The position numbers and the translations under genes are program-made. From Reichenbachiella faecimaris (lineage in GTDB: Bacteria > Bacteroidota > Bacteroidia > Cytophagales > Cyclobacteriaceae): a DNA stretch of 64,000 bases. Within the stretch, counting starts at the first letter, position 1. Every line of letters starts with the position of its first letter. Where the stretch lies: contig NZ_FWYF01000002.1 of assembly GCF_900176375.1 (NCBI RefSeq), forward strand, positions 904,161 through 968,160, read 5' to 3'. Below the pieces are notes generated by a model. The model was not told the DNA's origin, searched no databases, and saw nothing but the letters and a program-made list of their open reading frames with translations. This document shows positions 61,485 through 64,000 of this stretch, in pieces.

Positions 61485-62177
61485 ATGGTAAAAATTAACA
61501 TGACCAATAAGCTTCTTGTCGTTTCACTTTTCTTGATTTTCTTTGCCCATAACGTGAATGCCCAAGAGACTATTGCCACTGCCAGGCCAACTTTATCTAT
61601 AGGTCCGTGGGTGCTTCCCGAACATAGTTTTCAATGGGAACAAGGGGCACAGTATTCAGATATTGAAGGAGAAGAATGGGGATATGACGCTTTTTTTAGA
61701 GCGGCCCTGTCAAGATCAATGGAGATAAGAATATTGATCCCAACCCTTGAAAGTCGTGCAGCAGTGTTTGGCGTAAAATGGATGATGCTTCAGCCTGAAG
61801 GCAACAAACCTGGAGTAGGGGTTTCGATGAATTTAGCGAATCAGAACGGAGAGCTTAAGGTGGTCGGCTATCGGGTAGCGGTAAACAAAAAATTAACGGA
61901 TAATCTTATAGGTTTTGTAAACGCAGGGTATGCTTCTGGGGGATACTTTGGAGATGTTACACTGGCCTATGCGCTGGCAGATAAAATCACAATAACAGGA
62001 GAATATTGGCATCACGAAGATTGGAAGCAATTACATGCTTCGTTCATCTATTTGATCAATTCCGAAACCCAAATTGATTTGAACGGTGGATATTTGATAG
62101 ACGCGGGAAACGATTATACTTTTGGACTGGGGTTTTCGCGGAGATTCAAGTATAACGGACCTAGAAATGACGGCTAA
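61485..62177 (+). CDS. Putative outer-membrane beta-barrel protein
   Basis: 230 residues. A signal peptide ends NVNA-QE; the ATG at 61500 (MTNKLLVVSLFLIFFAHNVN) is an equally good start. The mature part is a series of amphipathic strands (FRAALSRSMEIRILIPTL, ITITGEYWHHE, FGLGFSRRFKY) ending near an aromatic-rich strand. The pattern is like small barrel proteins of the MetA/phenol-degradation or transporter-like group; this is a weak assignment. It precedes the Cache-channel gene by 30 bases on the same strand and may be coexpressed with it. Confidence 0.7.
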   Translation: MVKINMTNKLLVVSLFLIFFAHNVNAQETIATARPTLSIGPWVLPEHSFQWEQGAQYSDIEGEEWGYDAFFRAALSRSMEIRILIPTLESRAAVFGVKWMMLQPEGNKPGVGVSMNLANQNGELKVVGYRVAVNKKLTDNLIGFVNAGYASGGYFGDVTLAYALADKITITGEYWHHEDWKQLHASFIYLINSETQIDLNGGYLIDAGNDYTFGLGFSRRFKYNGPRNDG

Positions 62178-62207
62178 TTTTATTTCACTCCCAGCTGGCT
62201 AACTTTG

Positions 62208-64000
62208 ATGATAAATCTTCAAAATAAGACTTTCATATTTTTTGCGGTCGTTTTCTTAGGCCTAAGCGCATTTTTCATATATGACCTATGGAATTATATG
62301 AATGTACGCGAAAAGAAGAGTATTGAGATAGGAACGGAATCTCTTCTGAAAGTTCAAAATGAAATCGAAGAAATTTTAGATGAAGTCATTGCCGAGGGAG
62401 ATCAAATTAAGAAAATCGTAGAAGGCCAGCGTCTTACAAAAAAAGAAGTCATTGCTCTTGCAGAAAAGAGTAGTCGGGATCTGTTTTACCTCCAGGCGGT
62501 GGCAATTGCCTATGAACCTTACGCCTTTGATAGCCTAACGACCCGATTTGCACCTTTTTATGATAAGCGCCAAGGACGAGTGATTCAACTGGAAGACCGC
62601 TACGACTATACAGTAGATACAGCTTCTTCTAATATATGGTACCATGGACCGCTTCAAAGCAGAGCCCCGGAATGGAGTGATCCTTTTTTCGGTACAGCAG
62701 CTAAAGTGTTGGTAGCAGATTACGGATTGCCATTTTATCTTAAAGGCTCAAGTAAGCCATCCGGAGTGATTTCACTTGTCATGGATCTAAAGAAATTGGG
62801 TGCAAAAATGGATTCACTAGCCATCGGAACTACTGGTACGGCTATGATATTTTCTGAGAGCGGGCACGTGGTAGCACATCCGATCTCAGAGTACATTTTG
62901 GATGTCTCTCTCCAGTCTATAGCCCAAGAGTTGGGACTAGAAAACATGGTGGATGTGATGTTGCTCACAAAGGAAGGGTATCTGGATTACAGCCGATATT
63001 TAGGAAAAAAAGCATATGCCTTCTATGCCGAGATTCCTCATGTGCAATGGAAGACCTTAATCGTTTTCAATTCGGCCGATTTGCTAGGAAATGCAGACCT
63101 CCTTCATAATAAACTTGTAAAAATTTGCCATGGTCTTTCTGCACTCTTTTTTATGGTCGTCTTATTTTTGATTGGTAAAAAGGCAAATACAAAAAGAAAA
63201 TTGTGGTCTGTATCTGTCTACGCATCTCTCATTATTGTGTCCAATATCATGGTCATGTGGTATCTCAATTTAAACTTCAACTATTCTCAAGGCACGGAGA
63301 AGGAAGTATTTATTGATAATCGGACCAGTTTGGCATCCTTTATCAACAGTGAAAATCTGCGAGTTTCAAAGTTGGGATTGCAGAAATTCATACCTGTATC
63401 TACCGGAATTTTTGTGGAAGAGTTTGAGTTTCGGGATGCGTATAATGTAACTATTAGAGGGCAGGTTTGGCAGAAATGGCCTAAACATTTGGCGAGGTTT
63501 TATGAAGCAGGCATTAGATTTCCCCAAGAGGCACTAGGGGCACTCACTATTATCAATAAGATTTCCGAAAAGGAAGATAAAAATTTTGTTACTCATACCT
63601 GGACAGTCAAGGTCATGCTAAAAATGCCCTTTGATTATTCAAAGTACCCTTTTGATGTACGTGATGTAAAAATTGAAATCATGTACCCAGATGTTGACTC
63701 CGGAGTCTTGCTGGTACCTGATGTGGACGGGTATTCTGATATTCTTCCATACAGTTCTCCAGGCATCAACAAGGACATTTTTCTAAACGACTCGAAATTG
63801 TTGTCTACACAATTTTCATTTAATCTAGTCAATTTTCAAGATCGATTTGGAAACAAAAAATTTACAGGATTGAATCAGTTTCCAATCATGAAATATTCAA
63901 TTAATCTCAAGCGAAGATTGTTGAATGTGATGGTGATGAACATCATACCTATCATAGTGGTGGCCTCCATGATTTTCTTGATATTTTATAGTATTACTAA
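62208..64000 (+). CDS. Cache sensor fused to a pentameric ligand-gated ion channel-like domain, C-terminus cut off
   Basis: 597 codons open to the right edge. TM1 spans about 8-27. A periplasmic double-Cache-like domain follows (about 30-300: LQAVAIAYEP; SGVISLVMDLKKLG; GTTGTAMIFSESGHVVAHP). TM2 (about 305-325), a basic cytoplasmic loop and TM3 (about 333-356) come next. Residues about 360-565 resemble the extracellular domain of pLGICs: the Pro-loop reads FDYSKYPFDVRDVKIEIM (Pro481), close to GLIC's LDFRRYPFDSQTLHIYL. M1 follows (about 571-595) with its conserved proline (NIIPII, Pro581). Topology is consistent: Cache and channel domain both face out. M2-M4 lie beyond the window. The Cache call is moderate; the channel call rests on two strong motifs. 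Confidence 0.82.
   Translation, partial: MINLQNKTFIFFAVVFLGLSAFFIYDLWNYMNVREKKSIEIGTESLLKVQNEIEEILDEVIAEGDQIKKIVEGQRLTKKEVIALAEKSSRDLFYLQAVAIAYEPYAFDSLTTRFAPFYDKRQGRVIQLEDRYDYTVDTASSNIWYHGPLQSRAPEWSDPFFGTAAKVLVADYGLPFYLKGSSKPSGVISLVMDLKKLGAKMDSLAIGTTGTAMIFSESGHVVAHPISEYILDVSLQSIAQELGLENMVDVMLLTKEGYLDYSRYLGKKAYAFYAEIPHVQWKTLIVFNSADLLGNADLLHNKLVKICHGLSALFFMVVLFLIGKKANTKRKLWSVSVYASLIIVSNIMVMWYLNLNFNYSQGTEKEVFIDNRTSLASFINSENLRVSKLGLQKFIPVSTGIFVEEFEFRDAYNVTIRGQVWQKWPKHLARFYEAGIRFPQEALGALTIINKISEKEDKNFVTHTWTVKVMLKMPFDYSKYPFDVRDVKIEIMYPDVDSGVLLVPDVDGYSDILPYSSPGINKDIFLNDSKLLSTQFSFNLVNFQDRFGNKKFTGLNQFPIMKYSINLKRRLLNVMVMNIIPIIVVASMIFLIFYSIT

Follow-up and report, generated by a model that had tools for sequence, protein, structure and literature searches.

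Does a single chain encoded by Reichenbachiella faecimaris join a chemoreceptor-type Cache sensor to a pentameric ligand-gated ion channel (pLGIC), and could such a protein gate an ion flux on binding a small molecule? The question was raised by an earlier note on a gene, here called beta1, that lies at the end of the 64,000-nucleotide stretch of DNA analysed (the window). Its forward-strand reading frame is open from 62205 to 63998 and continues past the window edge; in the full genome it is a 703-codon frame (C6:966365-968476 including the stop codon, or window position 62205 to about 64316). The first start codon, TTG at 62205, is followed immediately by ATG at 62208, the start taken in the earlier note; the orthologue in a second genome of the genus (G198) starts at the position aligned with this ATG. 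From the open frame, its continuation and the orthologue start, we place the gene at 62208-64000 in the window (+), continuing to about 64316. Counted from the ATG, the product has 702 amino acids; residue numbers given here count from the TTG.

Hydropathy peaks of the full product mark seven membrane helices (residues 10-28, 305-323, 333-351, 575-593, 607-625, 645-663, and 683-701), so M2, M3, and M4, the three further helices that the earlier note proposed to look for past M1, are present beyond the window; they also appear in the model of a homologue described below. The order along the chain is TM1, a periplasmic dCache domain, TM2, TM3, a pLGIC ligand-binding domain with a YPFD Pro-loop, and M1 to M4, all encoded on the forward strand. 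We modelled the 598 amino acids encoded in the window with AlphaFold (pLDDT 80.7, pTM 0.57). In the model, a long helix at the N terminus is followed by a sensor region of mixed alpha/beta structure, by long helices at 297-324 and 330-357 and, on the C-terminal side, by a beta-rich domain (367-570) and M1 (572-597). TM1 (62232-62288, residues 10-28) is placed by hydropathy and falls within helix 2-72 of the model. The dCache sensor with its N-terminal stalk helix (62292-63092, about residues 30-296) is placed by Pfam, a family profile, and Foldseek. TM2 (63111-63176, about residues 303-324) and, after a short basic loop, TM3 (63195-63275, about residues 331-357) are placed by the model and hydropathy; they are the two additional membrane helices that the earlier note had described after the sensor. 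The loop between them has nine residues, of which five are lysine or arginine and none is aspartate or glutamate. By the positive-inside rule, this composition should put the loop in the cytoplasm and both the Cache and the ligand-binding domain in the periplasm, in agreement with the prediction of that note that the two sensing domains share one side of the membrane.

What kind of sensor is the N-terminal region? Pfam MCP-like_PDC_1 matches beta1 at 41.2 bits (cut-off 27), which, with TM1, bears out the description of a membrane-anchored Cache-like sensor. The dCache_1 model scores 37.2 bits on beta1 (E 3e-9), below its cut-off of 45, and 55.5 bits on the tandem copy of the gene. A profile built from 10 Cache regions matches solved dCache structures (3li8, E 2.8e-23; the uracil receptor 9hvj, 1.2e-13; PctA, 5.4e-13). 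Foldseek with the window model returned chemoreceptor dCache domains (best E 7.9e-13), and apart from dCache sensors its best 50 rows held two integrative chemoreceptor models and one chimera that serves as a lactate biosensor. Thus, model, structure search, and profile all show the double alpha/beta fold of Cache domains, carried by a long helix at the N terminus, and its core contains 10 columns that are invariant across 10 members. With regard to the ligand, the shared Trp-Tyr pair is kept in beta1 (W145, Y146). The conserved aspartate of the dCache_1AA and dCache_1AM motifs (D173 in PctA) is absent, being valine in the first copy and threonine in the second, as judged by eye in an alignment to Mlp24 with the motif taken from the available parts of the literature; we therefore rejected the amino-acid/amine motif for beta1. 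By eye, we also saw no purine motif in beta1.

We examined the C-terminal part in an alignment of 23 members (A2) representing 20 of the 28 loci found by a scan of genome contigs, with two copies each from the source genome (G000) and from L005. A2 excludes the Okeania loci L032, L033, L036, and L040 (near ones are included), the fragments L037 and L039, and L019 and L024. None of the 23 members matches the Pfam channel models (Neur_chan_LBD and Neur_chan_memb) at E ≤ 0.01, and no Pfam channel model is listed for beta1 even at E ≤ 10. The Pfam search recommended in the earlier note therefore fails to detect this family, which we read as reflecting the limits of the models. The NCBIfam model LGIC_1 gives E 2.1e-5 on beta1 (24 bits, far short of the cut-off of 500) and 1.9e-5 on the tandem copy, and matches only two of the 23 aligned members at E ≤ 0.01. 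A profile of nine relatives (A1) matches GLIC chains (E 6.6e-7) over profile positions 119-316, that is, from before the Pro-loop into M3.

Structure comparison points the same way through a homologue. The window model, which ends before M2, found no pLGIC among its best 50 Foldseek rows. For the channel part, we rely on the AlphaFold model of the full-length protein from Cytophaga aurantiaca (L013; 711 amino acids, pLDDT 79.2, pTM 0.65), which has the same overall plan as beta1 and C-terminal helices at 582-606, 619-643, 650-674, and 688-710. It matched the dCache structure 3li9 (E 4.5e-13), ELIC (6ssi_E, 2.3e-11), and GLIC (4hfb_A, 3.2e-11); the pLGIC rows listed span 326-347 columns with TM-scores by target of 0.62-0.70 at 12-18% identity, and L013 is itself 25-29% identical to beta1. 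The placement of the domains relative to one another is unsure because the pTM of the models is only 0.57-0.65. The plan of a ligand-binding domain built as a beta-sandwich, with four helices after it, is seen in the models of the window part and of the homologue, in the Foldseek search with the homologue, and in the hydropathy of beta1.

Within the ligand-binding domain (63285-63917, about residues 361-571; placed by LGIC_1, the GLIC profile match, the model, and Foldseek with the homologue), the Pro-loop FDYSKYPFDVRDVKIEI lies at 63630-63680 (residues 476-492, with YPFD from 481). The pre-M1 arginine R570 (63912-63914) falls in the region aligned with the pre-M1 arginine of GLIC and precedes M1 (63918-63995, about residues 572-597; model and hydropathy). 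Y481, P482, F483, D484, and R570 are invariant in all 23 members, and an acidic Pro-loop residue together with a basic pre-M1 residue has been described as a conserved pair in the available text of Tasneem et al. 2004 (PMC549065). The M1 proline that the earlier note took as typical of these channels is present (P582) and invariant across the nine rows of A1, but it is not invariant across the 23 rows of A2. Together, the GLIC profile match, the dCache, ELIC, and GLIC matches of the homologue, and the conserved gating-interface residues support the assignment of the C-terminal part of beta1 to the pLGIC family, as first proposed from the Pro-loop, and place residues 360-597 with channels rather than in a non-channel family. 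Two by-eye registers of M2 against GLIC differ, and the charges near M2 therefore allow no clear call on ion selectivity.

We favour a reading in which beta1 encodes a Cache-gated pLGIC, in which a periplasmic small molecule acting on the Cache domain would open or close an ion path; from the sequence and models we give this a probability of about 0.72. In such a protein, a channel of five chains would form around M2, made up of beta1, of the tandem copy, or of both, and a small periplasmic molecule would bind the Cache domain. The resulting change would travel through the stalk helix, a collar formed by TM1 to TM3, and contacts with the ligand-binding domain, and would shift the gating interface of YPFD and the pre-M1 residue, so that the ion path opens or closes and the membrane potential or ion content changes. 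The two folds, the seven-helix layout, the conserved gating residues, and (see below) purifying selection and the tandem arrangement are directly supported. We infer the pentamer, conduction, the Cache domain as gate, the ligand, and the direction of gating; that a metabolite does the gating and that the channel is tied to gliding, both suggested in the earlier note, would be inference only. Chemoreceptor dCache domains are thought to function as dimers, which makes for no simple fit to a pentamer; we speculate that a channel of two kinds of subunit might ease the mismatch in symmetry.

An alternative is that the pLGIC ligand-binding domain itself takes up the agonist and the Cache domain is a structural or ion-sensitive accessory that tunes gating. 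Such a role has some precedent in DeCLIC, whose unrelated N-terminal domain appears, in the available text of PMC12664993, to speed gating and to bind calcium, and six of the 23 members of A2 have the channel with no Cache match. However, the invariant columns of the Cache core and its similarity to sensor domains, the nearest relatives with solved structures, speak against this, and we consider the accessory role possible though unlikely.

How the Cache domain and the channel came together can be approached through the distribution of the family. dCache_1 matches 17 of the 23 members of A2, from several phyla. Relatives lacking the Cache domain (L021, L025, L027, L029, L034, L030, and L024) occur in Cytophagales and Thermomicrobiales, and by hydropathy two of them, L021 and L030, have three helices ahead of the ligand-binding domain. 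Because these two relatives share them, the extra helices TM1 to TM3 seem to be a trait of the channel branch, within which a Cache domain has been gained or lost at a site between TM1 and TM2; the tree behind this suggestion is unrooted. Genome searches found relatives in seven of eight genomes of the genus (no match in G200), in 5/98 of the family (one of them, G214, by a 35-residue match at E 9.9e-4), and in 8/194 of the order, where three have the long form (G000, G015, and G076) and five have frames of 471-493 amino acids. A single-protein scan of viral contigs found no relative. One Bacteroidales MAG carries two different Cache-pLGICs on separate contigs (L018 and L038), so that multiple copies per genome extend beyond the genus.

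Across Bacteroidota, profile A1 finds relatives in 23 of 395 genomes. By the profile of A5, the Cache form occurs in 15 of these (15/395 Bacteroidota); the other eight have Cache-free frames of 321-398 amino acids, which we take for ordinary channels, or one 156-amino-acid fragment. PF02931, for comparison, is found in 2/395 genomes; A1 picks up the two PF02931 places in G550 and misses the strong PF02931 match in G425. In the same sample, A1 finds 14 shorter Cache-free channel-like frames (L083-L090 and L092-L097). PF02931 matches just two of these 14 places, and bacterial pLGICs may therefore be undercounted by that model. Since the Pfam channel models miss every aligned member, annotation of the branch probably stops at the Cache domain, and the size of the branch is likely to be underestimated.

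The tandem copy begins 16 nucleotides after the beta1 stop codon (701 amino acids; L003:8333-10438, about 64333-66438 in window numbering) and is 74% identical to beta1 across nearly the whole query. In a tree of 33 rows, the 11 proteins of the genus form two clades, alpha (n = 4, support 100/99) and beta (n = 7, support 100/100). An alpha-beta pair is found in G196 and G197, alpha alone in G194 and G195, beta alone in G199, and a tandem beta1-beta2 pair in G000 and G198. Both copies in the source genome fall in the beta clade, so the pair there arose by a second duplication within beta, and on this tree the alpha/beta duplication is the older of the two. The tree places the beta duplication before the split of G196 (support 96/92, short branch), a timing that is uncertain. 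For five orthologue pairs, whole-gene dN is 0.12-0.15 with dS saturated, and both beta copies and alpha are therefore under purifying selection.

Divergence between alpha and beta is uneven along the chain. Mean identity is 37% in the Cache domain, 40% in the ligand-binding domain, 75% in M1, 95% in M2, 68% in M3, and 59% in M4. We considered gene conversion as the cause of the near-identical M2 and do not favour it, because a comparison of the two G000 copies gives saturated dS for each domain and recent conversion is therefore not visible. M2 is also the most conserved helix in the genus, with 22 of 26 columns invariant over the 11 proteins, as would be the case for a working pore. This conservation tells against a protein that keeps the pLGIC fold without conducting and signals by conformation alone. 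By eye, neither of the selectivity motifs described before M2 is evident in beta1, and the literature searched shows no recording from a Cache-pLGIC, two points in favour of such a protein; nevertheless, we regard it as quite improbable and retain a conducting, Cache-gated channel as our reading.

A shared pore with different sensors fits hetero-pentamers, and it also fits two homopentamers that perform one ion task in response to two ligands. It is plausible from the sequences that alpha with beta, or beta1 with beta2, form two-subunit channels. Adjacent co-directional pairs in four of eight genomes of the genus, the near-identity of M2 between alpha and beta, and the recurrence of the paired state with different partners all argue for joint assembly. 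On the other hand, alpha and beta diverge most in the domains outside the membrane, three genomes of the genus (G194, G195, and G199) carry a single copy, so that one copy can function alone, and homopentamers were expected for related proteins in the available text of Tasneem et al. (PMC549065). In light of these observations, we give separate homopentameric receptors with different ligands about an even chance. A stronger proposal, that in this genus two subunits encoded in one operon form the Cache channel as a hetero-pentamer, obligately or by preference, with one pore and two different Cache sensors, the alpha subunit being served by a dedicated periplasmic binding protein, seems doubtful to us. 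If it were true, this would be a channel by which bacteria combine several chemical signals and which arose independently of the heteromeric Cys-loop receptors of animals, and the loss of alpha and second duplication of beta in G000 and G198 would have kept or restored the two-subunit state. We found no bacterial heteromeric pLGIC in the literature searched (titles and the starts of abstracts, mostly non-subscription).

Do the neighbouring genes inform function? Directly upstream (61485-62177, +), 30 nucleotides before the beta1 ATG, is a gene for a 230-amino-acid secreted protein whose sequence suggests an outer-membrane barrel and which matches no Pfam family above cut-off. It occurs in three of eight genomes of the genus, always directly upstream of the channel gene or genes, and has no match in the other five. 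Because the gaps are short (30 and 16 nucleotides), this gene, beta1, and the tandem copy look like an operon, and the 230-amino-acid protein gene is a likely operon partner of beta1. A porin-like protein of 365 amino acids (Porin_O_P E 0.006, below cut-off) adjoins the channel in G195, G196, and G197 and has a 43% identical relative elsewhere in G194. A gene for an SBP_bac_3 binding protein (E 1.9e-32) with an OmpA-type neighbour is present at the locus in G194 to G197, exactly the four alpha genomes (SBP_bac_3 with OmpA-domain protein at L049:14106-15937, L048:3362-5203, L051:12880-14703, and L052:5593-7479), and in none of G000, G198, G199, or G200. SBP_bac_3 paralogues (49-52% identity) occur elsewhere in six genomes, G198 and G199 included. 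In eight related genomes, this gives only a hint of a link between alpha and the SBP_bac_3 (PBP-II) protein; PBP-II neighbours of such channels were reported in 2004 in the available text of Tasneem et al. (PMC549065).

Convergent with the Cache-pLGIC pair lies a gene for a Kv-like potassium channel (Ion_trans E 5.7e-34; L003:10531-11370, about 66531-67370, -), the C terminus of which gives a weak zinc-ribbon match below cut-off. It stands beside the Cache-pLGIC gene or genes in all seven genomes of the genus that have one, directly adjacent in G000, G194, G198, and G199 and with the porin-like gene alone intervening in G195, G196, and G197. We considered that the two channels might depolarise and repolarise the membrane as a pair and rejected this, as the Kv-like gene is present in all eight genomes and occupies the same conserved locus in G200, which lacks a Cache-pLGIC. 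A tblastn search of 35 distant loci (L005-L040 less L012, with flanks of at most 5 kb) found no Kv-like relative. We conclude that the Kv-like channel is a bystander. A second voltage-sensor-type channel of 244 amino acids is encoded nearby (L003:15356-16090, -; Ion_trans E 4.4e-20), with the filter region TVGFLQD in place of the TVGYGD of the Kv-like channel.

Prokaryotic pLGICs serve as structural models for nerve receptors, yet few of them have a known stimulus in the cell. A built-in sensor of the chemoreceptor type would offer a direct handle on what is sensed, and the tandem pairs could show whether heteromeric assembly also occurs outside animals. We found no functional study of a Cache-pLGIC in the literature searched (again titles and the starts of abstracts, mostly non-subscription), and the terms cache, fused, periplasmic, and N-terminal domain are absent from the available text of Jaiteh 2016. 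Cache-pLGICs apparently are functionally unexplored, a view we base on a 2025 paper according to which no pLGIC other than DeCLIC has an N-terminal domain that has been characterised in part (PMC12664993, available text).

How does beta1 compare with known systems? GLIC and ELIC share with it the ligand-binding domain and four helices, the Pro-loop, and the pre-M1 arginine, and are not known to have an N-terminal sensor or extra helices. The dCache sensors MkcA, TlpQ, PctD, mmHK1S-Z2/Z3, and the uracil receptor 9hvj share its sensor fold; they are sensors of chemoreceptors or kinases, whereas the output of beta1 would be a channel, and the available parts of the published lists of receptor types with dCache_1PU or dCache_1AM domains name no ion channel. 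DeCLIC, like beta1, is a bacterial pLGIC and carries a large N-terminal domain in the periplasm, but the two lobes of that domain are likened to jelly-roll domains in the available text (PMC12664993), whereas the N-terminal domain of beta1 is a dCache placed between two membrane helices. The closest precedents are the Cache-fused ART-LGICs of Cytophaga, Methanosarcina, and Microbulbifer, which, in the available text of Tasneem et al. (PMC549065), have a Cache domain ahead of the pLGIC ligand-binding domain and the channel of four helices, as in beta1, and were proposed to be chemoreceptor channels. The fusion itself has thus been known since 2004, and the full-length Cytophaga aurantiaca homologue is 27% identical to beta1. 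The layout described there is a signal peptide, MCP-N, Cache, and then the channel; beta1 differs in its predicted helices TM1 to TM3 and in its tandem duplication. New here are the helix layout, the invisibility of the branch to the Pfam channel models, and the history of alpha and beta.
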